From Thunnus maccoyii (taxonomy: Eukaryota; Chordata; Actinopteri; Scombriformes; Scombridae), in contig NC_056550.1 of the NCBI RefSeq assembly GCF_910596095.1, positions 28,297,699 to 28,361,698 of the forward strand: DNA of 64,000 bases, given 5' to 3'. Position numbers and translations under genes: made by a program. Position 1 is the stretch's first letter. Each line of letters opens with the position of its first letter. This document shows, one piece after another, positions 10,453 to 54,345 of this stretch. The notes beneath the pieces are model-generated. The model was not told the origin of the DNA, ran no database searches, and was given only the letters and a program-made list of their open reading frames with translations.

Positions 10453-10484
<32 letters not shown>

Positions 10485-22400: not shown

Positions 22401-25400
22401 AGACGGTTGAGTGAATCATGTTGCCTTGTGGGTAACATAGGCGCCAAATTTTGACAAGGAAGAAGAATGTTTGGAATAAAAAAAGAGAATATCTCTAGTT
22501 TTGCTGCATTGATTTTCATCTTTTTTTCTGAAACTGTCCATCAGGAGTCTGATGAGACTCGTTTAAATAACAAACGCGAGCAGAAGCCATTAATGCAAAT
22601 GTGCAGAGCCTGCAAGCTTCAGTATGTCGGGTCCTTCCTGTGTGTGTGTGTGTGTGTGTGTGAGACCTGTGACTCGGCGGACGCCTCCTCGGTCCACTCC
22701 TTCCTTGCGAGCTCTCAGTCGGATGGCCTGGTTCTCTCTGATGACCGTGGCTTTGGTGGTCTCCAGAACCGCCACCTCCTTCCTCGGGATGTAGGTTCCT
22801 GCCACAACATCAAAAAATATTACTAGTCTGAAATATATCAGAATAACTTGTATCAAACACATAGATGATCCTGAATACCTGCACTGAAATACTGAAAAGA
22901 CACTTTTGCCCCATCAGATTAATTCGGACCATGAATGGACACTAAGATAAGAATGTTGTATATGTCACTATTATGTGTTTCTGTGTAACACATATTTGAT
23001 ATCGTGTTCTGTAGTTTAGGATCGTGTTTGGTATGTGATTTGTAGCAGTGATTTGTGTAAATTTACATAACACCTGGAAGTATTTAATTATATGCGGTAT
23101 TATTGTGTGTCATATATCCAACGTGGGATGAACTATTTCAATAATATGACATGAAAATTAAAAATAAATCTTTAATACATTTAGAAATTTGCAAAAATGA
23201 GAGAAACTTACAACAAAATTGGGGAAAAAATGAAATTTATACCAAATTATAAACCTGACTCCTTTAAGTAAGTGAAAAGCACAAGAAATAATTTAACTAG
23301 AGTGCTAACAATGCAAATATATCTGTAAAATAATCCTTTTTATCAAATTTTGTCTTTTGTGAACAATCACACTATAAGACACTATAAAAAATGTCAAAAA
23401 CAAGCTGCAATTTCTAAAATACAGAGCTATTTATCTGCCAAACATATTTGGGTCAAGGCTAAGTATGTAGGAAAAATATTAATATTTATTGTGATATTTA
23501 ATATTTAAGTACGAGAAACAGTCTGTAAACAATTTCTCACCTGCTTAAAATAAATAAGACACGAACATGTTGTTTTACCTAAAAGTAGAGAGTTTTCTAT
23601 GAGAATCAAGACGTGAACTGAATACTTAGAATATGTTAAACGCAGTGTTGTTGGTAACGAGTACTCAGATTACTTTTTTGTTGTAACCAGTAACGTAATG
23701 TGTTAGTTTTGCAATTCAAGTAAATAGTTATCTAGTTAGGTTTTCAAATAAGCAATCAGTTACTGTTAAAATATTACTGTATTTCCCTGTTTCTTTTGTC
23801 GCCACAAAAAACAATAAAAGAGGATCCCTGACGCATTGGCACTGTTTCTTTTCTCATTATGCACCTTTTCCTGCTTCTTGGCAGGTAGCTGCATGCTAGT
23901 GGAAGGTATCCAACCTTACCAGTACCCCACCAGCACCCTATTAATTTTATGTTAACTTGTAATCAAACATTATCATTAATAAAGAGCTGTAAAGGGGTGC
24001 CTGTTATTCCTGTTATTAGCCTGCAGAGTTACAGATACATTCAAAGGTAGGCGTACATTAGGCTGCACGCCTTCTGGACAATATAACCAACATGTGCAAC
24101 GAATCACAAAGGGGTTCTCATTTATGGATTATGAGTTATTTTTCTCAATAGGTAACGCTGTAACGTAACAAGTTACTTTTTAACGGCAGTAATGTTGTAA
24201 TGTAACAAGTTACTCACTTACTTAAAAGTAATGTTACCCCAACACTGGTGACACATTTGTAATATTTATATTAGAGCACAGATTTGACAGATGAATATCT
24301 AGAGTATCTAGAGTCTGATAATAACGTACCCGGCCCTTCGAACAGCCACTCGTCTCCAGCCACTCTCTTCTCTCCTCCCTCCTCCTCAAAGTCCAGCAGC
24401 GCCTGCAGACGCAGCGCCGTGTCCGGATACACGATCTGCAGTGGTGTCACATCCTGATGGACACATACACATACACAAACGTGTCAGACATGACCACCAT
24501 AATGGAAGGAAATTCTCCTCTGACATTCAGGGAAGATTCCAACATTAAACTGTTAAGATTGTGTGTTTCAGTTTGTAAATCAGACAGGAGGGTAGACCAT
24601 GTGGGGAATTTGGGACAATTAATAAAAATAAATTTAAAGTGACAGGTCCCACTTTTTCCTGTCTTTAAAACATGAATTGATTTTTCTGCTAAATAAGGAT
24701 ACCAATTAACATAAAGCCTCTCTACAATTAACAACTTTAATTCTTTACCCATGATAAAACCATGCTCTAGGTTTTTTTCCTTTTCTAAATATCTGCCTTT
24801 TTCTACGTTTAAATTTAGCATTAGCATTGTTCTCAGGGTGAAACCTGTGAAACACAGAACACACACACAGACTTATAAATAAATACATAATAAAACACAT
24901 AAAAACCAGACTGAATTTCATTAGTTGTGCAGGTATTTTCTCATAAACCAAAGTATTGACCAGACGATGGCGCTAGATGAAAAGTCAGAGGATCACCAGA
25001 GTTTCTCACAGACCTGCTGGATCTGCTCTCCAGGGTACAGTGGGAACGGATCCTGGGTCAGACGGATCTCCAGGTCGGCATGGCGGAGTTTGGCCTGACC
25101 GGATTGGTCAAAGAGGACCTGGCCGTTGTCATCGCGGGCCACAGGGTTGGCGACCACGCAGTAGTGACGCGGTGGCACCATGATCATACGCTCCGGAGAG
25201 AAGAGCACTCTGGGAAAGAAACAAGTGAAACAGGATGAGGCAAGCACCCAGGAGCAGGACCGGGTTCTGAAGCCGGTTTGACGTAGTGGCCAAACCGTAA
25301 CCATCACGTGATGCACACTGGCCCATAAAAGAATTCTGCCCATAGATTTACATTGTGAAAGAGACATTTGTAAATCAGAGGATAACATTTTTTGAGCATC

Positions 25401-27427
25401 ACAACCCCTTCAAAATGATGTGTTTTACTATCAGAATTTGATCCATTCAGTCCAGTAACATTTGGAAAGTCTAGAAGAGCTGTGTGATTGAATTATTTTA
25501 ATCCCATTCAAGTTAGCAGCTGGCTCGGCTGCGGAAGTATCTGGCCCGCGTGCTCAATGGGCCACACGATCCTGGAAGATCCGGAATATTTACCCAGAGG
25601 TCGAACTTTTTTGGCTTCATGGGCCACTGAGCAACTTTCACAGGAATGAACGGAGCCCCACCTCCAATGTAAGTCCAGTTCTCTTTATACATCCATGGCA
25701 TGAGGTCAAAATGATCACTCTGAAAGCCACCAAACTTGTTTAATTGTGTTGTTTGGCTAACTTACTGAATTTTTCAATTGAAAGAATCTGCCAATCATAA
25801 TTTTTTTCATCACATTTGATCATTTATCAAATGATTAATAGATAGATAAATGGATAGATCCCATATTTATGGGCTTAGCATGTTTGTTGTTAGCGCAATT
25901 TGTTAGCATGTTAACTGTAGTGTTTGTTAACATACCAACATGGTAACACCTTTTGTTAGCATGCTAACAGTAACTTGCCAGGCTTACAATGTTACAACAG
26001 CTTAAAGTTAGTAATACCATGATAACTGTAAGGAGAAACTAACTCCTGTCGCGCTTCCCTCAAGTAAAACTTGATTTTCTTTTCTTAGAGCCTAATCAGT
26101 ATCAACTTGGAATTTTATAAATGTTGCCCTCTGGAGGCATGTTCGATCTTGTCATTAAAACAGGTTAGACCTTTTTTTAAAAATCATTAAAAAACTATTT
26201 ATCAATAATCAACTATTATTTTTATTCAATCAATTAATTAATTTTAATTAATCAATTGATTATTTTTATTTATTTAATTAATTAATTAAGTTTCTGTTCA
26301 AAGGACCAGCGTATAGGTTTTAGTGGCATCTAGCAGTGAGATTGCAGATTGCAACCAACTGAATACCCCTCCCCTTCCAAGCAGGTAGGAGAACCTACAG
26401 CGGCCATGAAACTCACAAAAAACATGAAGGGCCTTCTCTACAAACCAGCGTTTGGTTTGTCCATTCTGGGCTACTGTAGAAACATGGCGGTGCAACATGG
26501 CGGGGTATAGAAAGAATCAGTGAACACAGTAAGTGTGTGGGCAATAAAGTCAATCAGTATCTCCACAGTAGTACTGTCCTGCTAAGATAAAGGCTTTTCA
26601 ACACAAAAGTGTGTGTGTGTGTGTGTGTGTGTGTAGTCAGGGAGATAACAGAGTGTCCCTGCTCACAATGATAACACACTGATCCAATACAAAAACAGAG
26701 GGATGACAGAGTTTCCTTTAGACAAACGCAGGTGATCAGCAGGATTAAAGCTTAATCTGCACATTTTCTTTGCATGTGTCAATGATGAAATGCCATCGGT
26801 TTGTATGTCAGTGGTATTATACATGTTCCAGGACAGACTAGCAGCATTTCTTTTTGTATTCTTTGTTCAGGGACCACAAATGAAAAACAGCCTCTTCACT
26901 AACTTTGGAGCATTTACAGTAATGTTTATTAATGTGCACTGTGTCTGTTAAATAAGTTCTGTAAGGCTGTAGTAAGCAGTGTTTTGAGCTATATGATAAG
27001 CACGCTGACTCACTGTCACACTTTCATGGTTTTCAGGGACACTTGAACAGAACAGAGCCATCATTAATGTTATTAGTAACACTACTATGACAAGTCAAAA
27101 TGTCTGCTGTGAAAAACATCTACTTTCAAACGAGTGCTGTTAGCCACAAGATAACCTGAGAGTAGCTGTACTCGTCAACAACAAATGATGTTAAGAAGCA
27201 GTATCTGGTTAATTGAACCACAGCTGAATCTCAGGTTGATTCTTTCTGTTCTTTCTGCCCTCTGACCTTTCATTGTCCTGGCGGATGTAGGTGAGCGGTC
27301 CGATCTCCACGCGGGCGATATTGGTGTTCTGGTCCAGCACATGGATGTAGTGGTGAGGCGGGATCCGGATGATGGACGCGTCCACCAGCCCCTCAGTATC
27401 CCTGTGGGTTCCTCCCTTCTTAGACAT
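6998..27427 (-). CDS. mvp: Major vault protein (copy A, complete)
   Basis: MVP is the main shell protein of the cytoplasmic vault ribonucleoprotein particle. Coding exons (minus): 27427-27267, 25209-25014, 24453-24330, 22798-22667, 22011-21917, 20445-20209, 19331-19206, 17077-16859, 16386-16151, 16065-15868, 13942-13798, 13682-13471, 12524-12408, 11262-11136, 7860-7672, 7135-6998. All have GT-AG borders and matching phases; the sum is 2652 nt, 883 aa plus stop, close to human MVP (893 aa from memory). N-terminal MVP repeats fill about residues 1-500 ([45 protein letters not shown]). The shoulder ([36 protein letters not shown]) and the alanine/glutamate-rich cap helix (about 640-835) follow. 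The start fits the first ATG of the exon, followed by a lysine-rich leader before the first repeat. Oddities: an acidic run at residues 358-369 and a Gly-Gln repeat C-terminus. Confidence 0.96.
7003..7028 (-). repeat. GGCCAG hexamer repeat encoding the Gly-Gln tail of MVP
   Basis: The last codons before the mvp stop are five Gly-Gln pairs, encoded by four near-perfect GGCCAG units plus flanks. The tract ends directly at the TGA (6998-7000), so unit number changes would lengthen the tail without breaking the frame. Confidence 0.85.
7861..7892 (-). repeat. Dinucleotide tract forming the 3' splice site of mvp exon 15
   Basis: On the mvp strand the intron ends in (GT)n-GCAG, so a dinucleotide microsatellite replaces the usual polypyrimidine tract just before the exon starting at 7860. 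Confidence 0.7.
8010..10485 (+). mobile_element. CR1/L2-clade LINE, 5'-truncated, with intact reverse transcriptase frame
   Basis: The insertion sits antisense in mvp intron 14. A frame that is open from about 8010 to the stop at 9897-9899 encodes the pre-RT linker ([21 protein letters not shown]), the RT fingers and palm, and the C-terminal segment. The catalytic YADD is at residues 311-314 counted from 8127. The 3' tail carries the AAAGGGGAGTTTTT box, ends in TATATAAATAAAGATTGATT and then a GATT microsatellite, as typical for this clade. The endonuclease domain is missing, so it cannot move on its own. Confidence 0.9.
8127..9899 (+). CDS. LINE ORF2 fragment: reverse transcriptase
   Basis: This is a 590-codon open frame with no internal stop. 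Recognisable parts are [17 protein letters not shown] (fingers), [17 protein letters not shown] (motif A region with the first catalytic aspartate), [13 protein letters not shown] (motif B), YADDTQLY (motif C) and a downstream [12 protein letters not shown] / LHWLPV segment typical of L2-like elements. There is no host promoter or ATG at its start: the frame extends upstream to about 8010 where the copy is truncated, so it is a retroelement remnant and not a host gene. The uninterrupted frame suggests recent insertion. Confidence 0.9.
11325..12232 (+). mobile_element. Non-autonomous hAT-like element in mvp intron 13
   Basis: The element begins CAGTGGTGGAA and ends TTCCACCACTG, perfect inverted termini. 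It is flanked by imperfect 8-bp duplications (TACATGGT / TTCATAGT), the size made by hAT transposases. It carries AAGTACATTTAC and AGTGGAGTAGAAAGTA words found in related fragments near 7190, 31180, 39738 and 58330. No transposase is present. A second element lies inside it (11641-11972). Confidence 0.85.
11641..11972 (+). mobile_element. Second hAT-like element nested inside 11325-12232
   Basis: It runs from CAGTGGTTCCCAACCT to AGGTTGGAAACCACTG, inverted termini of a widespread hAT-derived repeat. The near-perfect 8-bp flanks are GTTTAGTC and GTTTCATC. The same inner element with the same flanks, reversed, occurs at 39984-40315. Confidence 0.85.
15075..15152 (+). mobile_element. Short Tc1/mariner-like palindromic repeat
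   Basis: This piece of about 78 bp starts TACAGTACCAGTTTGGACAC and ends GTCCAAACTTTTGACTGTTA-CTGTA. The inverted ends resemble the common teleost CAGTACCAGTCAAAAGTTTG family. It lies in mvp intron 10. Confidence 0.65.
17634..17830 (+). repeat. ATTAATCGATTA-type dispersed repeat
   Basis: Copy in mvp intron 7; it shares AGCTGCAAATATTAGTCAATTAATTGATTA-like start words and the TGGTTCCAGCTTCTTAAATG segment with the other copies. Confidence 0.65.
19388..19700 (+). repeat. ATTAATCGATTA-type dispersed repeat
   Basis: Divergent copy in mvp intron 6, recognised by the CTCAATGATCAGAAG start, TTAGCTTCTCAAATGTTATAA, ACTGAATAACTTTGGG and a terminal CAATTGATCGAGAAAATAAT. Confidence 0.6.
22140..22340 (+). 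repeat. Degenerate tandem repeat of GTTAGCATTAAAAAGAGTAAT
   Basis: Roughly ten imperfect copies of a 20-24 bp unit lie in mvp intron 4. Homologous arrays are found in the same position, 5' of the ISG12 exons on the transcript, at about 36895-37090 (fusion B) and 48030-48200 (fusion C). Homology between mvp and the fusion genes appears to end at or near this array. Confidence 0.75.
22637..22662 (-). repeat. CA repeat at the 5' splice site of mvp exon 4
   Basis: On the mvp strand the intron begins GTCT and is followed at once by a CA dinucleotide tract. The fusion genes have the same arrangement at 37429-37446 and 48557-48632. Confidence 0.8.
23643..24247 (+). mobile_element. Non-autonomous DNA element with CAGTGTTG / CAACACTG ends
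   Basis: It lies in mvp intron 3. It begins CAGTGTTGTTGGTAACG and ends GTTACCCCAACACTG, giving imperfect inverted termini. Inside are repeated GTAACGTAA and CAAGTTACT words typical of a common teleost hAT-type repeat. No coding capacity and no clear target duplication were seen. A related fragment lies near 18905-19030. Confidence 0.7.
26296..26505 (+). repeat. Dispersed teleost repeat fragment (TTTAGTGGCATCTAGC type)
   Basis: In mvp intron 1. It carries GTGGCATCTAGCAGTGAG, GATTGCAACCAACTGAATAC and GAAACATGGCGGTGCAACAT, a word order that I recognise from a very common fish repeat. Copy number elsewhere cannot be shown from this window. Confidence 0.55.
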
Positions 27428-28398
27428 GATCTAAACAAAATACTGCAGAGAGAGGAGAGAGTCTGTCAGTAACGTTACAAACCAGACTGTATCGTCAATT
27501 TATCTGTTTTAAAGATATTACAGAATTTTATATGGGACTTTTTTTGCAAAAATGCTTTTTAAAGTTGATGTGAAGCTTATATTCAGCTTCAGCAGTCTGA
27601 GTTAGTCATATCAAGTGGATATCTGACACATTTACTGTCTTTTTAGCGTCAAATTCCCTCTTTGTGTTTCCTCAGACAGTGTTTCCCTGTTGAGCTGCAG
27701 GTGGAAGTATAGTAACAAAAAGAGGAACTTTGGCACTAAAAAGACTGTAACGTTGAAAGATATCTACTTGATTTGACTCATTTGGACGCTGAAGCTTCAT
27801 ATTAGCTTCAGATAAACTTTTAAATACATTTTTGCACAGAAGGAGGACTGTGGATTTTGTCCTCCATCACTTCCATTGTAAGGTCATTATGAAGGGATCT
27901 TTTAATGGTCAGTATGAACAGGAGGAATGATTACAGCAAGAAAAACAGGTTTCAATGTTCACTTGGGCTCCTGACTGTTGTTTTAGGACACACTTGAAAA
28001 ATTGTGAACCCATCCCAGTATGAACAGCAACTTCATTGTGCACTCAACATGCATGTGACATTGGAGGACGATGAATGACTTTTCTGGAGATAAAAAGCTC
28101 ATTTTAGTGAATGCACGTCTGTAGAGACAAACAGCAGGTGCTGCGCCTCAGGTATGCACACAGACACACCTGCTACACAAAGTGCAAAGTCTGTACAATG
28201 ATGAGTTTAACTCTCAAGCTCTCACACATACTGCACATTCAACAGAGCTTTAACAGGTGCTTCTGTCTTCTGATGAATTATCCTGCCGATAATATTTGCA
28301 TTCACATAAATGAACGTCAACAATGTGTCCATTTGAAACATACAATGAACACTGAGGAGAGAGTGGTGAAGGCCGAAATGTTAGAGAAAGGTTGCCGG

Positions 28399-29590
28399 TT
28401 TGAGCTGCAACGATTAATCAGTTAGTTGATCAACAGAAAGTAAATCAGCAACAAAAAAAACAAACTTTTGATGTTTCCAGCTCCTTAAAAGTGAGAATTT
28501 GCTGCTTTTCTTTGTCCTAGATCACAGCAAATATTATATTTTGGGGGTTTGGACTGTTGGTCAAACAAAACAAGACATCTGAAGAAGTCACCATGGGTTC
28601 TAAGATATTGTGATGCATTTTCTGAGGTTTTACAAACCAAACAATTAATCAATAATGAAGGTTAGTTGCAGCCCTATCAATCCCTGGGCTGGGAGGATAA
28701 CACGTGTTACAACTAATGAGGTGCTATAACTGAAACTAACAGTTATTTTCTTTTTACAATCAATTAATTAAGGGTCTAAAAAAAAACTATAGTCTTCAAA
28801 TGTCTTTTTTTGTACATCAAACAGTCCAAAAAACAAAAATATTCAGTTTGTATGATGTAAAAACAGAGAAAAGCAGCAAATCTTCATTTTGAAAGGAAGG
28901 AAAACAGCATGTTTAGAGTTTTTCTTTGACCATTTTCTGCCGGTAGACTAATCAATTAATTGAATCATCCTTTTATCCCTATATTTAAACACTTTTTTAA
29001 AAAAAAAAGAACTAAATAAAGTATTGCTGTCAGTCAGTGCAACATCCCTGAATACAACCTGTGAGGAGAAAGAAACAATCTACTAACTGCAAACATGAAC
29101 TGAACTTGCACAACTGTTCCAAATCATCTGTTTTCCAGTTTTAGACCATATTTTAATCCTTTTGTCAGAAATAAATTTTCATTAACGAACTGCATTGTAT
29201 CATTAAAACATCACTGTTGAATCATGATACTGCACTATTATTTGTTTTCTGTTTGTTATTTTGCCTCAGTGAGTAAGAAATTAATGAGATGTTCCAGCAA
29301 GAACAGAAGTAATCTGCTGATTATTTAATCGATTAGTTGTTTGTCTATAAAATGGTGACAGACAATGGTGAAAAATGTTGATCACTGTTTCCCAAAACCA
29401 ACAATGACATCCTCAAATCGAGTCCATGACTCGAAAGATATTCAGTTTACTGTCATAGAGACTAAATAAACCAGAAAATATTCACATTTAAGAAACTGGA
29501 ATCAGAGAATTTGGACTAATCAAAATAATTGGCAATTAATTTAATAGTGGACAATTAATCAATTAATCGACTTATTACTTCAGCTCTTAT
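28399..29590 (+). repeat. Cluster of three ATTAATCGATTA-type repeats
   Basis: Copies at about 28399-28680, 28730-28985 and 29318-29590 lie in the long untranslated-leader intron of mvp. The second is inverted relative to the first. Shared words are CAATTAATC, AGAAACTGGAATCAGAGAA and GAAAATATTCACATTT. An imperfect ATT/TTG trinucleotide array follows at 29699-29773. Confidence 0.65.
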
Positions 29591-30730
29591 TATCAGTATA
29601 AGTATAAGTAGTATAATAAGTAATAGTATGTAATAAAAGTAAAGATGTTAATTCAGTTTTCTTATGAGAGTAAGGAGTGAAGGAAATAAGGGTTAAAAGA
29701 AATTAATAATAATAATTATTATTATTGTTGTTATTGTTATTATTATTATTATCATTGTTGTTATTGTTATTTTTCCTAAAAGTCACATGACTTTAATTAT
29801 TATTTATAGCTGCTTATGTTGTTAAATTCCTGTGTGATGGTTCTGGAAACTCCTCTACACTGAGATTGTGTTTCAGCTGAGAGGTTAAATTATTCATCAC
29901 TTGTGATCCTGAGTCATATTTCCCACTCATGAGAGAGATTAATGGATAAAAACACAACACAGAGAAGGAAAATGTGGCACAGACATGAAGTAGGAAATGC
30001 AAAGATAAGAAGGGAGGCTCCTCTTTATGCTTCTTCTCTGTAGAAACTGTAATGTTATTGGGGACAAAGTACATCAGCTCTGGCTGGACGGGTTTTCACT
30101 GCAGGCCTGACGGTGAAATTCATCTGCTCTAACTTCCCATTTTCAATATATACATTTTAGTCAAGTCATACACATAGGCCTAAAGGGTGGCATCCGCTTT
30201 ACCGATGTAAATATTTTGTTTACAGCAGGAAGTAACTTCCTGGTGATGCACCTCTACGCCCTGATAAATTGCGCACAGAATAAAGAGAGCGTACCCAACT
30301 CCCATTTCAAAAACTCTAAATTTAATGTCAACTTCCTTGTTAGGCAGTACACACATGATCAGTTTAATTAAGGCATTTTAGGTATTGATATAATGTTCTT
30401 TTGAATACGGCTTGCATTCATACATACAAAGTAGCCCATGTTTCAAATTAGGGTTAATTATAACTTTAAAAATGTCTCTTCTCCACTGTCCACTGATGTT
30501 AACGTCATATCAATGGAAGAAGGCTGGACACAGTTGTTAAAGAGACATTTTAATAAGTACAGAGCTTCTCTGTGTGTCAGACGCACGCCGATTTGAAGAA
30601 ATGCTCCTATTCATTCAGAAAACATCTTCAGATGGTTTATATCATGCGTGAATCTTCAGAGATAAGTAAGTAACTTTTAAACTTCGAGGTTTTGGAGCGG
30701 AGTTCTGTGAGGAAGCTCCCGGATCTTACC

Positions 30731-30920
30731 TCAGCAGCGGTGTGCGGGGAAGAAGGCAGCTCGGACGGATCCTGGCTGGTTACACTGGTGGATGTTCAAG
30801 TTGTGTAAAAGCCAGGACCACTGTACATTCAGCTGCAGTGGTTTTGTGGGGCGTCACTGCTCTGTTGTGATCCCGGAAAAGGGATCATTGGTCACGTGGT
30901 TTACAGGTTGCAGAGCTGCG
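30731..30920 (-). promoter_or_regulatory. Untranslated first exon and promoter region of mvp (copy A)
   Basis: A consensus donor (GCTGAG/GTAAGA) ends the leader exon at 30730 on the minus strand, and its bases are alike to the leader exons of both fusion genes (42754 and 54304). The splice acceptor is at 27443-27444, leaving a 15-nt leader piece before the ATG at 27427. Upstream I see a CCAAT-type box (CCAATGATC on the minus strand) and a CCGGGATC / TTCCGGGA Ets-like word. I see no TATA box and no interferon response element. Confidence 0.6.
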
Positions 30921-32550: not shown

Positions 32551-33101
32551 TTATTTCTTCAATCCCACTATTCCTCCAGTGCTGCCCGTAGCTGCAGTGG
32601 CGGTCCTGAGCCCAGTTATACCTGCAGTCAGATAACACTGCCAGCAGCTCATCAATGGATTTTAATCGAGCAATCAAAGCCTTGTTCTCAATGTTACATT
32701 ATTGTTTCTTTCAGTTCCAGGCTGATCAGACACAAGGATTTTGTGTAATTATTCCACTTCAGAAATGATATGATATGATCATCATTTCATCAATGATTAT
32801 GGCTTTAACCTGCTGACTGCAAAATAGCCACTAGACTTCCCGCTGCCACTCCTCCTCCGTTAGTAATTGCAGCACTGGACATCATGCCTGCAGCGATGGA
32901 GCCTCCTGCTATTCCAGCTGAGGTGAAACCTATGGCCCCCAGAATAAGAGGGGCCACAACCAGCGAACCTCTTGGAAAACACAGTCAAGAAAACTTTGGA
33001 AAAAATGGTTCATAATATTTTAGCATGACTTTGTGAGTTAAATTTTAAGGTGATTCATAAATACTTTCCCAACATCTTACCTGAACCTGCTGCAAATGTC
33101 A
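32551..33101 (-). CDS. IFI27/ISG12-like gene, 3' exons only (copy D)
   Basis: Three exons with good splice sites and compatible phases match the ISG12 half of the fusion genes: 33101-33081 (21 nt), 32968-32810 (159 nt) and 32621-32551 (71 nt, TAA stop). They read VTFAAG, then [18 protein letters not shown]...[18 protein letters not shown], then a shortened glycine/threonine tail ending in GGIVGLKK. No stop interrupts them. I found no starting exon between 33102 and fusion B, and no MVP exons belong to it, so it is either a truncated relic or a gene with an unrecognised first exon. Compared with B and C the tail is 19-20 residues shorter and lacks the basic end. Confidence 0.6.
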
Positions 33102-35286: not shown

Positions 35287-38200
35287 TCATTTTTTCTGAT
35301 TTTCCTTTCTGAAGAGTCCAGTCATCCATCCCAGTGTTGCTCCAGCTGCTCCTCCAACTGCTGCTCCAGCACTGCCCACAGCTGCAGAGGCAGCTCCCGA
35401 CAGACCGACCGCACCTGCAGCAAGACGTCACACGTTAGATTCCCAGCAGAGCATCAGTGGACTTTATCAAGCTGTCTAACTGCAGAGAAGCTGAGAAAGC
35501 CTTCTTCTCAAACCACTATTGTCATTGCAGCATATACTTTAAAGTACTTGTGAAAATGTGATATTATTGTTGTTTCAGCTGCAGGTTTTCCAGACACTAT
35601 TTATAGGAGTTTATGTTCTTCCAATCCTCTTGCACATGCAAATATAACAGTTATCACTACAATAACATATCAAGACATGTAACCTGCTGACTGAAAAACA
35701 GCCACCAGACTTCCTGCTGCTACTCCTGCTCAGTTTGCAACTGCAGCAGCCGACATCATTTTAGCAGCGACGGATCAAAGCCTTGTTCTCAATGTTACAT
35801 TATTGTTTCTGTCAGTTCCAGGTTGATCAGACACAAAGATTATGTGTCATTGTTTAATAATAATCATTTCATCCAAGATTATGGCTTTTACCTGCTGACT
35901 GCAAAATAGCCACCAGACTTCCCGCTGCCACTCCTCCTCCGTTAGCAATTGCAGCACTGGACATCATGCCTGCAGCGATGGAGCCTCCTGCTATTCCAGC
36001 TGAGGTGAAACCTATGGCCCCCAGAACAAGAGGGGCCGCGGCAACAGCTCCCACTGCAGATGGACAAGAACAGTGTTTTTCATGACAATGTACTGAAATA
36101 CTTTACACAATCCACATTAAAGTGTGTCAAAAGTTAGTTGAAAAAGTCTTACCTGCACCTGCTACCACGCCAACAACTGTTCCTGAAACACACAATAGAA
36201 AAAACTGCTTGGTGCGTATTTCAATAGGATTGGATGTGATCCTCACAAAGATAGAACTCCTTCACACACACACACACACACACACAAACACTAACATACA
36301 GATCTAAAATTCACTAGCCACCTATTGAGATACGTTTACTGTGTATGTGTGTGTGTGTTGACTGTGAATTTAACCGTTGAATTAGACAGTCACTAACAGG
36401 TTGCTATGGTATCAGCGCCCCCCTGTGGCAGATACTGACACACTTGTCTGTGATTAACATCCACATTCATATCACTTGGAATGTTTCAGCCAAAATGCCA
36501 AAATTAGTCACCAAACAACTTCTTATAACTCAAAAATTAAAATTTTAAAATTATATAACAAATAAATATAAATAAATTTAAATATCAACATCATCTCTAT
36601 TTTTGGTAATGAGATCAGAGCTCATGACATGTGAGTCAGTGGGACTTTTATTCACAGCTCTCCACCCTTTTAGGGGATGTACTCAATGTCTAATTTGTAT
36701 AATGTGTTGAAGATTTTTTTATAAAATTTGAAGGCCTGGACGTACACTCTTTGTCTGCGCAATATAGACCCATTATAAAATCTGTCCAAAGATTTCATGA
36801 AACATAACCTGTGATTCTGTAAAAACCGTACAAGATGTCAAAAAGCTAAACAGAAGTTTAATAGCTGAAAGTCTTGTGATCTGTTCAAAGCCTAAATTAC
36901 GTTAGCATTAAAAAGAGTAATGTTAGCATTAAAATGTTAGCATTAAAAAAAGTTACATTAGAATTTAAAAAGTAATGCTAGCATTAAAACGAGTAATGTT
37001 AGAATTAAAAAGAGTAATGTTAGCGTTAAAAAAGTACCAATTGAATTTAAAAAGTTATGTTTGCATTAAAAAATTTAAAAAATTACGTTAGCATAGCTCT
37101 GTAGCCCGCTCCTCATCTCTGCTTGAAGCTAACAGCTCCATGCTACATTAGCCAATGCTAGCACAAAAAACTTTTAACAAGGGAGAAGAATGTGTTGAAT
37201 AAAAGAAGATATCTTTGGTTCTGCTGCATCAATTTTCACTCTTTTTTCAAAAACTGTCCATCATGAGTCTGATGATGTTACTCTTTTAAATAACAAACAT
37301 GAGCAGAAGTCTTTAATGCAAATGTGCAGAGCCTGCAAGCTTCAGTCCGCCAGGTTCTTCCTCATAAAATATTTAAAACATTTTGATTTGCAAATGTTTT
37401 ATAATCAAGGACCTGCATGCAACAGGTCTTGTGTGTGTGTGTGTGTTACCTGCGACTTTAAGGGCGGTTCCATTGTCTCCTCCTTCATTTCCATCGTCTC
37501 CTCCTTCATTGCGAACCTCGATGGTCTCCAGAACCATCACCTCGTTCCGCGGGATGTAGAGTCCTGCCACAACATCAAAAAAATGTTATGAGTCTGAAAT
37601 ATATCAGACTAAAGGCCTTTAACACACCGGGAGTGAGATGAATAAACAACACGAAAATGCAAAATACTCGCCTGTGAATAGTTCACATCAAATTAATTGC
37701 TCCATCAGATTAATTCAGACGATGAAAGGACACTAAGAAAACGGTTGTATAGGTCACTTTTATGATGTTTTTCTGTGTAAAACTTTAGTTTAGGATCATG
37801 TTCAGTGATTTGTGGCAGTGATTTGTTTTAATTTACATAACTGCAGAAAGTATTTTAATAATATGTGGTGTTATTGTGTGTCACATAATCCAACGTGGGA
37901 TGAACTATTTGAATAATATGCAATGAAACTTAAGAATAAATCTTTAATACATGTAGAAATTTGCAAAAATGAGAAAATGAAAACTGAAAAAAATTCACAC
38001 TTATATGTTACATTGTTACGTTTGTAATGATGTAGTAAGGTAATTATGTTTATAAGGTCTAATATTTATATTAGAGCACAGATTTGACAGATGAAGAATA
38101 TCTAGAGTCTGATAATAACGTACCAGGCCCTTTGAACAGCCACTCGTCTCCAGCCGCTCTCCTCTCTCCTCCCTCCTCCTCGAAGTCCTGCAGCGCCCGC

Positions 38201-40968
38201 AGACGCAGCGCCATGTCCGGTTCCACAATCTGCAGCGGCGTCACATCCTGATGGATACATACACACATATCAGACACATAGACTGTAAAATAACTGTGAC
38301 GTCACCAATTGGTTTATGGACTCCAGTTATGAAGCCTCGAGTTCTGTATTTTGACTGTCGCCATCTTGGATTTGACCGTCGCCATCTTGGATCTTTGGAG
38401 CCAGAAGTGACCATATTTGGACGAAAGAGTGGAGCTGACCCTAACGTTAGCTGCTAGCTTGGTTAGCATGGTGCATTTACAGTCTACGGTTAACTGTCAT
38501 TATGCTAATTTAGCTAGCGAAAAACAGGCTTAAAACATTAAAACAAAATGTGCTTACTCTGTGAATCTGGGGTTATGCTAAGGTTACGTTACTTAACCAA
38601 CATTGTCGCCGTGGTAGCAACTTGTTAATCTTTAAAACATGAGGAGATTTTTCTGCTAAATAAAGATGCACAATAACAAAACGCCTCTCTACAATTGAAA
38701 ACTAATTCTTTACCCATGATAAAACCATGTTCTAGTTTCTTTCCTTTATTAAATATTTGCTTTTTTCTCTGTTTAAATTTAGCATTGCATTGTTCCCAAG
38801 CGGAAACCTGTGAAACACAGAACACACAGACTTATGGAGAAAAACATAATAAAAACCAGACTGTGAATGTCATTAGTTTTGCAGATAGTCGCTCATAAAC
38901 AAAGAAGTTCCAGTCTCAAAGAAAAAACTCAATTCCCGCATCGATTTATTAAAAAAAGTCGACTTTAACAAAAGTGATGCAGCTGATAAGCGTGCAAGAA
39001 TTGACTTTTCTTTAGAACTGGAACTTCGGGGGATTTGATTGAACATCATAAGAGACAAAACAAGTGGTGTACATGTTGTCTTCTACTCAGCTAGATGAAC
39101 AGTCAGAGGATCACCAGAGTTTCTCACAGACCTCCTGGATCTCCTCTCCGGGGTACAGCGGGAACGGATCCTGGGACAGACGGATCCCCAGGTCGCCATG
39201 GCGGCGTATGGCCTGACCGGACTGGTCGAAAAGGACCTGGCCGTTATCATCGCGGGCCACAGGGTTGGCGATCACGCAGTAGTGATGCGGTGGCACCGTG
39301 ATCATTTGCTTCGGAGAGAAGAGCACTCTGGGAAAGATACAAGTGAAACAGGATGAGGTCACAACAATCACTCTGAAAGTTACCAAACTAGTTTTATTAT
39401 GTTGTTTCACCAAATAGTGATTTTTCCCTCTAAACTTCTCACCTGGTTTCATTTCAATAAATGTATTTCTGTACTTCAGTACAGTTTTGAGGTACTTGTA
39501 CTTTACTTGAGTGTTTCCATGTGATGCTACTTTATACTTCCACTCCACTTGTAGTTTATAGATAAAGAACGTCTCCCAACAGCGGCAAATACATACAAAA
39601 AACACTTACAACTACTGTTACTGTCTACAGCAGGAAAGAGGAAATATTCAACACCTTTGGACAGGAAACTGAACACTTTTTAATACTTGTAGACACCCTG
39701 AAATATATGCTGGAGGTCAGATTTCGACGTTTATAAGCAGTGGTGGAAAGTAACTAAGTACATTTACTTAAGTACTGTACTAAAGTACAATTTTGAGGTA
39801 CTTGTACTTGTTCTTAACTTGAATATTTCCATGTGATGCTACTTTCTACATTTCAGAGGGAAATATTGTACTTTCTACTCCACTACATTTATTTGACAGC
39901 TTTAGTTACTTTTCAGTTGAAGATTTGAAACAATGGATAATATAACAAGCTTTTAAAATACAACACATTGTTAAAGATGAAACCAGTGGTTTCCAACCTT
40001 TTTGGCTTTTGACGTCTTACAAAAAGCAGTGTGTAGTCGGGGTCACATTTCACATGTCTATGAGTTGTTAACAGCTCCACCAAATAGTGATTTTTCCCTC
40101 TAAACTTCTCACATGCTTTCATTTCAATAAATGTTCAAATGATCCAATATTTCAGCAAAAATCAAAGATTAGAGAAAAAGTCCAAAAACTGAAAACAGAT
40201 TTGTGTATCAGAACTTTGTTTTTTCTTCTTTCCTCTCCCATTAATCATCTCACCACCCCTCAGATTTATCTGCTGACCCTTTGGAGGGGCCCGACCCCTA
40301 GGTTGGGAACCACTGGACTAAACTAGCTAACTGTATATAAAGTAGTGTAAACTAGCTCCACCTCCAGCAGCTACAACAGTAACATGCTGCTCTAACACTG
40401 ATGCTTCACTATTAATAATCTAATGATGTCATATATAATAATATATCAGTCAGAGGGACCAAACCACTACTTTTACTGCAATACTTTAACTACATCAAGC
40501 TCATAATACTTATGTACTTTTACTGCAATACTTTAACTACATCAAGCTCATAATACTTATGTACTTTTACTGCAATACTTTAACTACATCAAGCTCATAA
40601 TACTTATGTACTTTTACTGCAATACTTTAACTACATCAAGCTCATAATGTACTTTTAGTTAGTGGGATTTTTCATGCAGGACATTTAATGGAGTATTTTC
40701 TACATTACTGTACTGAAACTAGTACTGGTAGCCACAAGTTAACCTGAGAGTAGCTGTACTCGTCAACAACAAATGATGTTAAGAAGCAGTATCTGGTTAA
40801 TTGAACCACAGCTGAATCTCAGGTTGATTCTTTCTGTTCTGTTCTGCCCTCTGACCTTTCATTGTCCTGGAGGATGTAGGTGAGCGGTCCGATCTCCACG
40901 TGGGCGATGTTGGTGTTCTGGTCCAGCACATGGATGTAGTGGTGAGGCGGGATCTGGATGATGGACAT
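35287..40968 (-). CDS. MVP N-terminal repeats fused to ISG12/IFI27 domain (fusion B)
   Basis: Exons (minus): 40968-40856, 39327-39132, 38247-38124, 37563-37450, 36182-36153, 36053-35892, 35414-35287; 867 nt, 288 aa. All introns are GT-AG and phases agree. Residues 1-145 are clear MVP repeats ([43 protein letters not shown]). Residues 146-182 are a degenerate fourth repeat, beginning YIPRNEV and ending in a Gly/Asp/Asn-rich run. Residues 183-288 are a full ISG12 domain ([38 protein letters not shown]), a glycine/alanine-rich set of putative membrane helices, and a basic tail (FRKENQKK). ISG12 proteins are interferon-induced mitochondrial/ER membrane proteins. The gene lies downstream of an ISRE-TATA promoter. 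Alternative: two separate genes; but the ISG12 exons show no ATG or promoter of their own. Confidence 0.8.
35684..35777 (-). pseudogene. Decayed ISG12 exon inside the last intron of fusion B
   Basis: The minus strand reads like the second ISG12 exon ([12 protein letters not shown], then [16 protein letters not shown]) but has a TGA where NGGG should continue and lacks the 5' part. A copy with the same stop lies at 47101-47194. It is a relic of an older ISG12 tandem copy. Confidence 0.75.
36895..37090 (+). repeat. Degenerate GTTAGCATTAAAAAGAGTAAT array (fusion B)
   Basis: This is the counterpart of the array in mvp intron 4 (22140-22340). It lies between the last MVP-derived exon and the first ISG12 exon, next to where homology with mvp stops. 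Confidence 0.75.
38278..38490 (+). repeat. Dispersed teleost repeat (GACGTCACC / CGCCATCTTGGA type)
   Basis: In intron 2 of fusion B; the related copy in fusion C (50567-50745) lacks one of two CGCCATCTTGG boxes. It is absent from the equivalent mvp intron, so it entered after the mvp-fusion split and before B and C separated. Confidence 0.7.
39738..40695 (-). mobile_element. Composite hAT-like element in intron 1 of fusion B
   Basis: This is an inverted copy of the nested element in mvp intron 13. The outer terminus CAGTGGTGGAAAG is at 39738, the inner element runs 39984-40315 with 8-bp flanks GATGAAAC and GACTAAAC, and the far outer end is lost near 40695. Fusion C has only its distal part (about 52260-52800). 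Confidence 0.8.
40469..40650 (+). repeat. 47-bp tandem repeat, about four units
   Basis: Units start at 40469, 40516, 40563 and 40610 with ACTTTTACTGCAATACTTTA; the last is cut short. The equivalent place in fusion C has two units (52649 and 52696), and the element in mvp has one. It is part of the composite hAT-like element. Confidence 0.9.
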
Positions 40969-41620: not shown

Positions 41621-42754
41621 ATAAACATCCCACGGTCTTAAAAACTGATATAATCAATATTTATTCAATGTAGACAGTATATTAGAACCAAAATTGTTTA
41701 AGAAATTATTGGGCCTAAATATGCAAAAAAACTTGCCAGGGTAATCTGAAAAGTTGCTAAATCTAGCAACAAAATTGCCAAATTGGCATCAGTGAGTATG
41801 ATACAACACATGTAAGATGCCTCAGACTGCAAGGTTAGTTACACGTCCAGTAACCCAGATTATTTTCTGTAGATACAAATTACAGATGTCCACTAAACGC
41901 CTCACATACAGACCAGCGGTACACGGAACAATGTACCAATGTTCCCTAAACGCCTCATATGCAGGCAACTGGTTGCGTTTCTCTACTCAAACCATCCATG
42001 CCTCAAACCAGTTAATTTTGCTATATTCTTCATTACAGCAGCTAATTACCTTCTGTACATTTAAACTTACAATAGTTCTGCTTTATCACTCCTAGCTCTC
42101 TTCTTCTATTTCTCTTTCTCGTTAATCCAACAGTTGTTTACACGCTTTTCAGATCTGCTAGTTACTTAGCTTAGCATTTAGCGACAGCTTCTCTCTCCTC
42201 AGTTTAATTATATTGAACAGTTATGAAGATTTGTTATATTTCTATAGAGAAACATTATATCGAGATAATTAGTTATCTTTATATCGCCCAGTATGACTGG
42301 TTAATGTTCCGCGACGTGGAGTTTTATATGACGCAATATGTGACCGCGTTCGAGTAATAAATGAAACAAGACAAATACCAGCATTGTTTATGTTTGTTGG
42401 CTCGAAACTTCTGTTATGAACTGGTCTGACTGGCTACGGTGGCTAGGCTAACAACAGCTGTTAGCCATACTAGCTGTGAGTCTGACAGTCGTCCTTCACT
42501 CTCCAGCGGTACCTGCCGTCAGGAAACGTTATGTGTCTCACTAACACACCTAATAATTACTACTGTGTGTCTCGAAACAGTTGTTAAAGTTGACACTTTG
42601 ACAAGTTAGAGCTCCTCCGTGTGTCAAACGCACGCCGACTTAAAGAAAGGTTCGTCATCACTCAGAAAACATCTTCAGTTGCTTCATATCATGCGTGAGT
42701 CTTCAGCGATAAGTTAGAAACTTTTACACTTAGAGATTTCTCCCGGGTCTTACC

Positions 42755-42790
42755 TCAGCTGCGGTGTGCTCGGACGGATCCTGACTGCAG
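42755..42790 (-). other. Untranslated first exon of fusion B
   Basis: It ends at a consensus donor (CAGCTGAG/GTAAGACCC) whose exon side ends at 42754, and splices to the acceptor before 40992, leaving a 24-nt leader piece before the ATG. The upper limit is set by the TATA box at 42805-42812 and is approximate. Confidence 0.6.
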
Positions 42791-42804: not shown

Positions 42805-42850
42805 TTTTTATAGACAGTCTGACGCCACTGCACGAAGGGAAAACGAAACT
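42805..42850 (-). promoter_or_regulatory. ISRE and TATA box of fusion B
   Basis: On the minus strand, AGTTTCGTTTTCCC at 42850-42837 is a perfect interferon-stimulated response element (AGTTTCNNTTTCNY). It is followed about 25 bp later by TATAAAAA at 42812-42805 and then the leader exon. Spacing fits a classic interferon-stimulated gene core promoter bound by ISGF3/IRF factors. Confidence 0.85.
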
Positions 42851-46446: not shown

Positions 46447-48557
46447 TCATTTTCTTTTCTGTTTTTCCTTTCCGAAGACTTTAGTCATCCATCCCACTGT
46501 TGCTCCAGTTGCTCCTCCAACTGCTGCTCCAGCGCCACCCACAGCTGCAGAGGCAGCTCCCGACAGACCGACCACACCTGCAGCAAGACGTCACACGTTA
46601 GATTCCCAGCAGAGCATCAGTGGACTTTATCAAGCTGTCGCACTACAGAGAAGCTGAGAAAGCCTTCTTCTCAAGCCACTATTGTCATTGCAGCATATAC
46701 AGAAGTAACACTAAATTACTGCAACTAACGACTATTTTCATTTTCAATTAATCAATTCATTGTTTAGTCTATAAAATGCCAGAAAATGGTGAAAAATGTC
46801 AATCACACGCCCAAGATGCAACCTACAGTGTCTTGTTCTGTCCAAACCCCAAAGATATTCAGTTTATTATCATAGAAGACTAAAGAAACCAGAAAATATT
46901 CACATTTGAGGAGCTGGAACCACACTTTTTGCTGAATACTGCACGAATTATCCATCTAAACTTCTTGTGACAATGTGATATTATTGTTGTTTCAGCTGCA
47001 GGTTTTCCAGACACTATTTATAGGAGTTTATGTTCTTCCAATCCTCTTGCACATGCAAATATAACAGTTATCACTACAATAACATATCAAGACATGTAAC
47101 CTGCTGACTGAAAAACAGCCACCAGACTTCCTGCTGCTACTCCTGCTCAGTTTGCAACTGCAGCAGCCGACATCATTTTAGCAGCGACGGATCAAAGCCT
47201 TGTTCTCAATGTTACATTATTGGATTTATTCTTTCAGTTCCAGGTTGATCAGACACAAAGATTATGTGTCATTGTTTAATAATAATCATTTCATCCAAGA
47301 TTATGGCTTTTACCTGCTGACTGCAAAATAGCCACCAGACTTCCCGCTGCCACTCCTCCTCCGTTAGCAATTGCAGCACTGGACATCATGCCTGCAGCGA
47401 TGGAGCCTCCTGCTATTCCAGCTGAGGTGAAACCTATGGCCCCCAGAACAAGAGGGGCCGTGACAACAGCTCCCACTGCAGATGGACAAGAACAGTGTTT
47501 TTCATGACAATGTACTGAAATACTTTACACAATCTACATTAAAGTGTGTCAAAAGTTAGTTGAAAAAGTCTTACCTGCACCTGCTACCACGCCAACAACT
47601 GTTCCTGAAACACACAATAGAAAATGCTGCTTGGTTCATATATATGAATCTATATAATCAACATCATCTCTTTTTTTGGCAATGGGATCAGAGCTCAGAT
47701 AACATGAAAGTCAGTGGGACTTTTATTCAGCACTCCCCACCCTTTTAGGGGATGTACTCAAAAACTGTGAGTCCTTTTTCAATGGAAGTAACACTGGATA
47801 AGAGAGGAATTTGTCTGTGTAATGTCTAATTTGTATAATGTGTTGAAGATTTTTTTATAAAATTTGAAGGCCTGGACGTACACTCTTTGTCTGCGCAATA
47901 TAGACCCATTATAAAATCTGTCCAAAGATTTCATGAAACATAACCTGTGATTCTGTAAAAACCGTACAAGATGTCAAAAAGCTAAATAGAAGTTTAATAG
48001 CTGAAAGTCTTGTGATCTGTTCAAAGCCTAAATTACGTTAGCATTAAAAAGAGTAATGTTAGCATTAAAAAAGTATGACTAGAATTTAAAAAGCAATGTT
48101 AGCATTAAAATGTTATGTTAGCATAAAAAAGTTACATTAGCATAAAAAAAAGTACCAACTGAATTTTAAAAGTTGTTTGCACTAAAAAAAAAAAAAAAAA
48201 ATTACGTTAGCATAGCTCTGTAGCCTGCTCCTCAACTCTGCTTGAAGCTAACAGCTCCATGCTACATTAGCCACTGCTAGCATAAAACACTTAACAAGGG
48301 AGAAGAATGTGTGGAATTAAAAAAAAAAAAAAAAAAGACATCTTTGGTTCTGCTGCATCAATTTTCACTCTTTTTTCAAAAACTGTCCATCATGAGTCTG
48401 ATGATGTTACTCTTTTAAATAACAAACATGAGCAGAAGTCTTTAATGCAAATGTGCAGAGCCTGCAAGCTTCAGTCCGCCAGGTTCTTCCTCATAAAATA
48501 TTTAAAACATTTTGATTTGCAAATGTTTCATAATCAAGGACCTGCATGCAACTGGTC

Positions 48558-48634
<77 letters not shown>

Positions 48635-51600
48635 CTGCGATTCTGAGTGCGGTTCCTTGGTCTACTCCTCCCTTGTGAACCTTAATGGTCTTTGTGGTTC
48701 CTGCCACAACATCAAAAAACATTATGAGTCTGTAATATATCAGACTAAAGGCTTTTAACACACCAGGGGCGAGATGAATAAACGTCATACAGCCGGATTT
48801 TCAACACCCCACATGGGCCTTCGCAATAAACAGCTGTCTGTGTAGATTACACTTCGTGATTGGTTGATGCTTTTATTCGCTGTGTGAAAACTCCAAAAAA
48901 TTTACCTTGCTCTGGCAAAAAAATTACGTCTTTTTCGCTGCGTGATATTTGCGTTCCGTGTGAAAGAACTCATGACATATACAACAATTCGAAAAATGTT
49001 TATAGTTCTGCTGCATCAATTTTCACCCTTTTTTCAAAAACGGTCCATCACGAGTCTGATCTTACAGAAGGGAAATTACAAATTCTGTGGAGACTCTTTT
49101 AAATAACAAACACCAGCTTAAGCCATTAATGCAAATGTGCAGAGCCTGCAAGCTTCAGTTCTTCCTCATAAAATATTTAAAACATTTTGATTTGTAAATG
49201 CTTTATAATCAAGGACCTGCATGCAACAGGTCTTGTGTATGTTTTACCTGCGATTTTGACGGCGGCGCCATTCTTGCCTCCACCCTTGCAAACCTTGATG
49301 GTCTTTGGAACAGTCACCTCCTTCCTCAGGGTGTGGGTTCCTGCCACAACATCAAAAAACGCTATGAGTCTGAAATATATCAGACTAAAAGCCTTTAACA
49401 CACCAGGGGCGAGATGAATAAATGACATGAAAATGCAAAATACTCGCCTGTGAATAGTTCCCATCAAAACTATTCACACTGTCAGCAATACGAATTTGTG
49501 ACAGAAACACAGAAACACAACTTTGCAAAAGAATTTGCAACAGCGCATTCTGCTGTCAGTCAGCCTGGTGAAGGCAGTTTGTCCTCTCAGCTAACCAGGA
49601 GCTGCTGCTGACAGACAGCTGCTTCTGTAGAAAGACACTGAATCAATATGTTGATTCAGAGGCTTTATTTCACCGCCCACCATAGTGAGTGAGCCTACCT
49701 GTCTGCCTGCAGTGAAACAGACAAGCTAACAGACAGACTGGAAGCTGATCAATCAATGTAGACACGGTAAATAATTTTAAAAAAAAAAAAAACATACAGC
49801 GGGATTTTCAACACCCCATGTGGGCCTTCGCAATAAACAGCTGTCTGTGTAGATTACACTTCGTGATTGGTTGATGCTTTTATTCACTGTGTGAAAACTC
49901 AGAAAAATTTACCTCGCTCTGGCAAAAAAACTACGTGTTATTTGTGTTCTGTGTGAAAGTGCTCATGATATAAACAACAATTCAAAAAAACAACAACAAA
50001 AAAAAAAAAAACGCCCCCGGTGTGTAAAGGCCTTAACTTGCTCAAAAACTCAAAAACTTGCCATGAAATACTGAAAAGACACTTTTGCGCCATCAGATTC
50101 TTTCAGACCATGAAAGGACACAAAGAAAACGGTCGTATAGGTCACTTCTATGATGTTTTTCTGTGTAAAACATGTTTGATTTTGTCTTCTTTAGTTTAGG
50201 ATCATTTTCAGTATGTGATTTAATTTACATAACTGCAGAAAGTATTTTAATTATATGTGGTATTATTGTGTGTCATATAATCTAACATGGGGTGAACTAT
50301 TATGTTATGTTGTTACATTTGTAATAATGTAGTAGTGGTAATTACGTTTGTAGTATTTATATTAGAGCACAGATTTGACAGATGAAGAGTATCTAGAGTC
50401 TGATAAAGACGTACCCGGCCCTTCGAACAGCCACTCGTCTTCAGCCACTCTCTTCTGTCTTTCCTCCGCCTTGAAGTCCTCCAGCTCCGTGTCGAGTTCC
50501 ACGATCTGCAGCGGCGTCACATCCTGATGGACACATACATATACACACACCTATCAGACACAGACTGTAAAAGAAACGTGACGTCACCAATTGGTTTGTG
50601 GACTCCTTTTATGAAACCTCGAGTTCTGTATTTTGACTGTCGCCATCTTGGAATTTTGGAGCCAGAAGTGACCATATTGGGACTAAATAGTGGAGCTGAC
50701 CCTAACGTTAGCTGCTAGCTTGGTTAGCATGGTGCATTTACAGTCTATGGTTAACTGTCATTATGCTAATTTAGCTAGCGAAAAACAGGCTTAAAACATT
50801 AAAACAAAATGTGCTTACCGGAAAAATTGAACTACTGAACTAATTCAACCAAACACTGAACAACACAAATTTTACAATTAACTTTCATGAACTGAACTGA
50901 AATAGCAGCAGCTACACCTATACTCTGTGAATCTGAGGTTATGCTAAGGTTAAGTTACTTAACCAACATTGTCGCCATGGTAGCATCTTGTTAATCACAA
51001 TGTAGCCACACCCTAAAGCATACACTGCTTTTGTCATTTATTTCACTCTAAATGGGACCATAATTTGCAAAAAGAACATCATGCTGCACTGAAGAAGACT
51101 TGAAACTAGTGACTGAGACCATAAACTCATTAGGAAACAGTTTACTGAGGTAACAATCCAAATAAAGTGAGAAGTAGGCTCATTTTCTCAGACTTCTTTT
51201 TGCAGCCAGTGGAGTCGCCCCCTGCTGGCCATTAGAAAGAACGCAGGTTTGAGGCACTTCTGCATTGGGGACCAGGAGCTTCCCGCTTAGTCAGACATGT
51301 GTCAGACATGACCACGATAACACAGAAGAAAGTTCTCCACTGACATTCAGAGAATACTCCAACATCAAACTGTAAAGATGGTGCCTTTCAGTCTGACAAT
51401 CAGACAGGAGTGTAGATCGTGTGGTGAAATTGGGACAATTAATGAAAATAAATTCAAAGAGACAGCTCCCTGTTTTTCCTCTCTTTAAAACATGAGATTT
51501 TTCTGCTAAATAAAGATGCACAATAACAAAACGCCTCTCTACAATTGAAAACTAATTCTTTACCCATGATAAAACCATGTTCTAGTTTCTTTCCTTTATT

Positions 51601-54304: not shown

Positions 54305-54345
54305 TCAGCTGCGGTGTGCGGGAGGCTGACAGCTCGGACGGATCC
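54305..54345 (-). other. Untranslated first exon of fusion C
   Basis: It ends at the donor CAGCTGAG/GTAAGACCC (exon side 54304). It shares the CGGACGGATCC and GCACACCGC words with the leader exon of mvp, which shows common descent of the 5' ends. The upper limit is inferred from the TATA box. Confidence 0.6.

Follow-up and report, generated by a model that had tools for sequence, protein, structure and literature searches.

Two tandem copies of an open reading frame joining mvp exons to an ISG12 membrane domain in Thunnus maccoyii

Exons of the vault protein gene mvp and exons of an ISG12/IFI27 gene stand in one row on the minus strand of a 64,000-nucleotide stretch of the Thunnus maccoyii genome (assembly GCF_910596095.1, contig NC_056550.1, positions 28,297,699 to 28,361,698 of the forward strand; hereafter the window, whose numbering we use unless another contig is named). 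This raises the question of whether the two sets of exons belong to separate genes or to a single one, and what such a gene might make. A sequence-only reading of positions 35287 to 40968 had proposed a chimeric gene in which N-terminal vault repeats are joined to an ISG12 membrane domain. Judged from the genome sequence, we are dealing with a chimeric gene that is present in duplicate, has a single open frame and can be traced to two parents.

The copy described in that reading (copy A, minus strand) consists of seven coding exons. Exon 1 (40856..40968) carries the start ATG and matches MVP, exon 2 (39132..39327) contains the Pfam family Vault_2 and exon 3 (38124..38247) the family Vault. Exon 4 (37450..37563) encodes a Gly/Asp-rich linker and aligns along mvp exon 4 with an internal gap of 39 nt and an extra stretch of 21 nt that repeats its neighbour. 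These mvp-derived exons are followed by ISG12 exon 2 (exon 5, 36153..36182, 30 nt, phase 1-1), ISG12 exon 3 (exon 6, 35892..36053, 162 nt, the hydrophobic core) and the ISG12 last exon (exon 7, 35287..35414), which ends in a stop at 35287. All 12 splice sites are GT or AG, and the intron phases are 2, 0, 1, 1, 1 and 1. Thus, four mvp-derived and three ISG12 exons do lie on one strand in compatible phase, and the joined frame runs uninterrupted through 288 codons to a proper stop, just as had been read from the letters alone. Pfam searches with the joined frame gave Ifi-6-16 at 4.2e-25 (profile 2-83 of 84), Vault_2 at 9.3e-24 and Vault at 3e-17, all above cut-off. Moreover, a search of the PDB matched residues 2-160 to residues 10-168 of the MVP chain 3gf5_A (E 6.7e-91, a value for the whole query), and the C-terminal part to the IFI27L1 structure 2loq at 5e-16. 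The linker does not look like vault sequence; since the alignment with mvp exon 4 extends over the whole of exon 4, we rejected an origin from foreign or new DNA and regard the linker as most likely diverged mvp. Further upstream lies the 3' part of an exon of the 5' untranslated region (UTR; 42754..42785, minus strand, donor after 42754, limits set by eye), which is homologous to the mvp UTR exon.

A second tandem copy with the same architecture (copy B), overlooked in the earlier reading, occupies 53053-46447 of the minus strand. Its frame has 299 codons, with GT or AG at all 14 splice sites. The mvp-derived exons 1 (52941..53053), 2 (51982..52177) and 3 (50415..50523, 15 nt shorter and in frame) are followed by a duplicated exon 4, i.e. 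exon 4a (49248..49340, 93 nt, in frame) and its in-frame duplicate 4b (48635..48700, 66 nt). ISG12 exon 2 (exon 5, 47575..47604), ISG12 exon 3 (exon 6, 47314..47475) and exon 7 with the stop (46447..46577) complete the frame, and the 3' part of a 5' UTR exon lies at 54304..54345 (minus strand, limits by eye). Copy B matches the same three Pfam families, with Ifi-6-16 at 5.3e-25 (profile 2-83 of 84) and Vault_2 at ~9e-24 as in copy A. Both copies start identically: where mvp has its ATG they read GTG, 39 nt of mvp sequence are missing, and the frame opens with an ATG nine bases further on. The mvp of this fish itself carries ~17 extra N-terminal residues (27427-27377, minus strand), which both chimeras lack. 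Because the second copy shares the architecture of the first, a chance junction or a single misassembly is unlikely.

Both parents could be traced in the genome (782 Mb in 54 contigs, with the window at 28.30-28.36 Mb of contig C18), where the counts of profile matches are lower bounds. The parent mvp lies just downstream of the chimeras on the same strand, at 7657..30772 (minus), with a UTR exon at ~30772-30730, its ATG at 27427, and repeat and shoulder exons to ~13.4 kb; this is not a full gene model, and the C-terminal-looking exons near 11.3 and 7.7 kb were recognized only by eye and without a Pfam match. The shoulder domain (PF11978) has at least three matches in the genome, all of them exons of this one mvp, and Vault_2 has at least three, i.e. 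copy A, copy B and mvp. Among the matches listed, the neighbouring mvp is the sole mvp found in the genome. For Ifi-6-16 there are at least nine matches, four of them on contig C16 near 19.44-19.47 Mb and five in the window, the latter comprising the two chimeras, a third ISG12 copy (copy C) and two relics of exon 6 with stops.

The junction itself can be placed between these two sources. Homology of copy A to mvp passes exon 4 and continues into intron 4 to ~36894, and homology to the ISG12 gene G1 of contig C16 begins at 36194, a dozen bases before the acceptor of exon 5. G1 has a 10-nt first coding exon, ATGGCTACTC|gtaag (MAT+R...), followed by exons of 30 nt and 162 nt joined in phase 1; chimera exons 5 and 6 have the same lengths and phases as exons 2 and 3 of G1. 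The first exon of G1 was not found in the 64-kb window within 3 mismatches. When window positions 36194-32698 were compared to C16 19472500-19469065, 8 of the 10 alignment blocks kept the same order and extended across both the 5' flank and the body of a second gene (copy C, which resembles the C16 gene G2), the other two being core-exon cross-matches between paralogues. The C16 blocks differ at 13-23% of sites and the A-mvp intron blocks at 2-18%. It follows from this collinearity and from the missing first exon of G1 that the sequence behind mvp exons 1-4 resembles two neighbouring genes of the ISG12 cluster without the exon that leads them, and that these mvp exons occupy the place of the ISG12 promoter and start.

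We envisage that a segment of the ISG12 cluster, cut before exon 2 of its first gene, ended up behind a partial tandem mvp copy that reaches into intron 4. The donor of mvp exon 4 and the acceptor of ISG12 exon 2 agree in phase (phase 1), so that splicing can join the one exon to the other; the start codon and the first exons would then come from mvp, replacing the first exon of ISG12. The whole unit would subsequently have been duplicated, yielding copies A and B.

Does the ISG12 part have a start of its own? In the interval between exons 4 and 5, neither copy contains an ATG that opens a phase-1 exon (up to 300 nt) with a donor of at least 7 of 9. Lowering the donor threshold to 5 of 9 yields seven candidate rows in copy A and two in copy B, of which one is common to both (ATG at 36773 in A and at 47909 in B) and, as judged by eye, makes a TGA at the splice when joined to exon 5. 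Read from upstream without splicing, the sequence before exon 5 runs into stops, and the part from the last of these to the exon contains no Met. Based on the donor scans and the canonical first exon not being in the window, an ISG12 gene with a good start of its own was rejected, and the earlier proposal of one fused reading frame stands.

The two copies also share a promoter arrangement. The strict consensus AGTTTCNNTTTCNY, which we take to be the interferon-stimulated response element (ISRE), matches twice in the 64 kb, both times at a chimera promoter (0.2 matches expected; 0 of 100 shuffles reach two). In front of copy A, the ISRE-like AGTTTCGTTTTCCC lies at 42837..42850 (minus strand), followed by TATAAAAA at ~42812-42805; in front of copy B, AGTTTCGTTTTCCC lies at 54417..54430 (minus strand), followed by TATAAATA at ~54376-54369. 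The distance from ISRE to TATA box, measured by eye, is 24 bases in A and 40 bases in B. This promoter stretch has two matches in the genome, which are A and B themselves. At the mvp UTR exon, no GAAANNGAAA motif occurs within some 3 kb on either side, and no TATA box was seen in front of it. With an ISRE/TATA promoter in front of each, both chimeras can be expected to be induced by interferon.

The length differences among A, B and mvp bear on whether the frame has been maintained. In the coding exons there are five net differences in length, and each is divisible by three (exon 3, 15 nt; exon 4, 39, 21 and 27 nt; exon 7, 3 nt), compared to 17 of 65 gaps in the introns (6/32 between A and mvp and 11/33 between A and B; the 3/13 between B and mvp stand outside this sum). 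If such gaps were as common as in the introns, all five would be in frame with a chance of 0.001, and with one of 0.004 if a third of gaps were. Not included in the five are the duplicate exon of 66 nt and the 39-nt difference next to the start. A neutral frame-survival model employing the observed substitutions and local frameshift rates gave a joint probability of 0.002 that frame and splice sites survive along the A-B path (0.005 with intron-rate substitutions), and of 0.005-0.008 that the frame survives on the way from mvp to A, where the calculation covered exons 1-4 and had no term for splicing. These values indicate that retention of the frame is unlikely under neutrality; because the tests overlap and use the same alignments, they are indications and not proof. 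With respect to rates, exon 4 has changed faster than its introns (25/93 versus 28/345 sites, P 7e-6), and exon 3 (P 0.06), exon 7 (P 0.14) and both together (P 0.07) do not differ significantly from theirs. Exon 4 is hard to align and its synonymous divergence (dS) is raised too, and of the 36 differences between A and mvp in exons 1-3, 19 involve CpG sites, including several losses of Arg. In view of these effects, and of the results for exons 3 and 7, we rejected the fast exons as proof of positive selection.

Copies A and B are unevenly alike, with tracts of 0.2-2% divergence (53294-51482 versus 41219-38629, and 47641-46957 versus 36219-35540) beside tracts of 7-8%, which suggests gene conversion over exons 1-2 and 5-6. 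In the intron after exon 6, both copies hold a broken second ISG12 core exon with an in-frame stop (35774-35682 in A and 47191-47099 in B, minus strand). The relic in copy A aligns to G1, and the working exon 6 also aligns to G2 and closely resembles that of copy C, as if the broken core exon had been replaced by that of a neighbour.

Several other explanations of the locus have to be weighed against a functional fusion. Two separate units, one a shortened mvp with its end in intron 4 and the other an ISG12 gene driven by a promoter of its own, would agree with the AATAAA/ATTAAA motifs in intron 4 of both copies and with the fact that ISG12 genes are normally separate, and could draw on the common ATG mentioned above, which is in phase when a 4-of-9 donor directly behind it is used (ATGG|gtctat), poor as this start is. 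We nevertheless consider such an arrangement improbable, given that intron 4 of neither copy contains a GAAANNGAAA motif, that the scans yielded neither a first exon with a phase-1 donor of at least 7 of 9 nor the canonical one, and that no Met occurs in the ISG part before the hydrophobic core, within which the first one lies. An artefact of assembly is very improbable: tandem repeats are prone to misassembly, yet the same exon junction occurs in two copies that stand 7-8% apart in their more diverged introns and differ by several in-frame length changes. More weight, while still unlikely in our judgment, belongs to the possibility that both copies are recent, decaying duplicates whose frame is open for lack of time and which make no protein. 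In line with decay, the ratio of nonsynonymous to synonymous divergence (dN/dS) in the vault part comes near that of a neutrally drifting copy, many differences touch CpG sites with loss of Arg, gene conversion could keep the exons alike, and copy B matches Vault only partially and barely above cut-off (29.9 versus 27 bits). Against it stand the low joint neutral probabilities of frame retention, the in-frame length differences in coding exons as opposed to introns, the ISREs in both promoters, and an intact exon 6 beside the relic copies with stops.

It is also possible, and less improbable than decay, that mvp gave no more than a promoter and start codon as a passive leader and that the product is an ordinary ISG12 membrane protein; this is a rival as to mechanism and overlaps with the claim of a fusion gene. 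The ISG core exon is indeed more constrained (dN/dS 0.40 for A versus G1) than the vault exons 1-3 (0.56 for A-mvp, 0.73 for B-mvp and 0.88 for A-B), the ISG part has no good start of its own, and Arg9 and other conserved residues have been lost. On the other hand, a passive leader has no need to keep 183-193 codons open through four or five exons, and Vault_2 still scores 9e-24 in both copies. Taken together, an interferon-inducible pair of fusion genes making a membrane-anchored vault N-terminus is, in our view, the best explanation of the locus as a whole, and we hold it to be rather probable. Besides the poor in-phase start and the partial Vault match of copy B, a number of observations speak against it. 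The constraint on the vault part is weak: with a dS of 0.135 and a dN of 0.075, the A-mvp comparison fits a nearly unconstrained A branch beside a constrained mvp, which weakens but does not refute a vault-binding role. At 114 positions the MVP of this fish agrees with two mammalian MVP chains; of these, 15 are altered in A and 21 in B, with gaps included. Exon 5 has a dN/dS of 1.06 versus exon 2 of G1, on 10 codons, the core exon of A gives 0.80 versus that of copy C, and the ISG parts of A and B differ by 12 nonsynonymous and 2 synonymous changes. Exon 2 has a weak donor (6 of 9), although the bases at this site are those of mvp. Furthermore, the looser motif GAAANNGAAA occurs 14 times in the window and ISRE-like motifs alone are weak evidence; the weight therefore rests on the strict motif and its place.

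If the fusion is expressed, the predicted products of 288 and 299 amino acids would begin with roughly the first three vault repeats, continue in a Gly-rich linker and end in the membrane domain of ISG12; 182-192 residues precede the Ifi-6-16 domain, and the repeats are assigned from residues 7-164. As for ISG12 proteins, the product would probably sit at the membrane of mitochondria or of the endoplasmic reticulum (ER). In the human vault, the two halves are described as touching through F6, I7, I36, N22, Q38, N40 and a D39-R42 salt bridge, and neighbours within a half-vault through R9:Q21 in R1 and chiefly through the cap-helix (PMC13347060). Both chimeras keep the half-to-half contacts I7, N22, I36, Q38, D39, N40 and R42, and position 6 is Ser in A and B, as in the mvp of this fish (Phe in human). 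The lateral contact R9 reads Q in both copies, by a change that is a CpG transition, and Pfam recognizes no shoulder in either frame. With the half-to-half face kept and the lateral contact and cap-helix lost, the domain could sit on an open half-vault without joining its wall. Exon 1 is mostly little changed, and the kept waist residues may instead reflect recency or gene conversion, which again counts against such a role.

Zebrafish MVP has been reported to recruit and degrade TBK1 (PMC7644919), and human IFI27 has been described at the mitochondrial membrane (PMC12204625). In light of these reports, a membrane-bound piece of MVP could alter the control of TBK1. We tentatively propose, as a possibility and not as the likeliest outcome, that the R1 face docks on MVP, on half-vaults or on MVP-bound partners such as TBK1, tying them to the membrane. 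The new type of immune effector suggested in the earlier reading is likewise a conjecture. More speculative, and rather unlikely in its full form, is a young interferon-inducible pair whose membrane-anchored vault-waist domains would, in infected cells, trap MVP, half-vaults or TBK1 bound to MVP on mitochondria or the ER, and whose linker and third repeat would owe their fast change to diversifying selection.

Further elements surround the chimeras. Copy C (32551..33101, minus strand; exons 33101-33081, 32968-32810 and 32621-32551 by eye) lacks mvp exons, is related to G2 of contig C16 and has an open frame over three exons with a short C-terminus; a donor scan at 7 of 9 found no first exon for it. 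The cluster on C16 includes a fourth, divergent ISG12 copy on the opposite strand (C16:19444577-19444741), and a strict ISRE match is located at C16 19443786, some 800 bases before that copy. A dispersed repeat is found at 11431-12238, 40525-39732, 52705-52258 and 58352-58519, with similar text upstream of G1; it lies in intron 1 of both chimeras, and the copies at 11.4 kb and in the chimeras are 95-99% alike. Between the last recognized mvp exons, positions 8007-9896 of the plus strand hold a 630-codon open frame with a reverse transcriptase domain (RVT_1, 8.7e-38). Beyond copy B follows a caskin gene at 59.4-61.6 kb, for which Caskin-2 scores slightly above Caskin-1, so that the chimeras are flanked by mvp on one side and caskin on the other. 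Neither an Rfam nor a tRNA scan gave a match in the window.

In Asian seabass, too, mvp and caskin2 share one scaffold, and they are among the 36 genes of a quantitative trait locus (QTL) for robustness (PMC10413685). In European sea bass, a cluster of tandem interferon-induced ISG12 genes (IFI27L2A) within a major QTL for resistance to viral nervous necrosis has been proposed as the cause of resistance (PMC11899128). That cluster differs from ours in being flanked by galectin-8 and cytosolic 5'-nucleotidase 1A, and the words 'vault' and 'mvp' occur 0 times in the main text of that report (PMC11899128); another paper on this resistance likewise describes an ISG12 cluster with other neighbours and no mvp in its main text (PMC10161657). 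Full-text literature searches found no paper on an MVP-ISG12 fusion among the matches listed, and no relative was confirmed in prokaryote genome contigs, viral contigs or phage records. To our knowledge, the capture of vaults proposed above would, if true, be the first case in which gene fusion has linked them to both a membrane and an immune pathway. The function of vaults is still described as unclear (PMC13347060). A natural fusion between the waist domain of the vault and a membrane domain induced by interferon would reveal which partner selection favoured for it, and the chimera offers a direct test of a link between vaults and immunity.

Compared to known systems, the chimera combines features of three. 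With the ISG12/FAM14 family (IFI27, IFI27L1, IFI27L2; PF06140) it shares the C-terminal 106 residues, a near full-length Pfam match, and the gene structure, in which the 30-nt exon 2, the 162-nt exon 3 and the phase 1-1 of the canonical G1 are kept. ISG12 proteins are small and single-domain and have their own first exon, whereas the chimeras carry a vault part of 182-192 residues instead. With MVP they share exons 1-4 and the aligned introns, which are copies of the neighbouring mvp and correspond to MVP residues ~7-168. Unlike the chimera, MVP has further repeats, a shoulder, a cap-helix and a cap-ring; since all of these are lacking, the chimera should not be able to build a half-vault alone. 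The two genes also differ at their 5' ends, the ISRE and TATA box of the chimeras not being seen at the mvp UTR exon. Chimeric genes of the jingwei type arise through partial duplication and exon joining, and the locus resembles them in having two identified parents, a phase-matched intron junction and a new combination of promoter and gene. It differs from them in its parents, one of which encodes a protein of the vault shell and the other a membrane protein induced by interferon, and in that the chimera is present twice; with both parents and a second copy in hand, it makes a clear case of new-gene origin.
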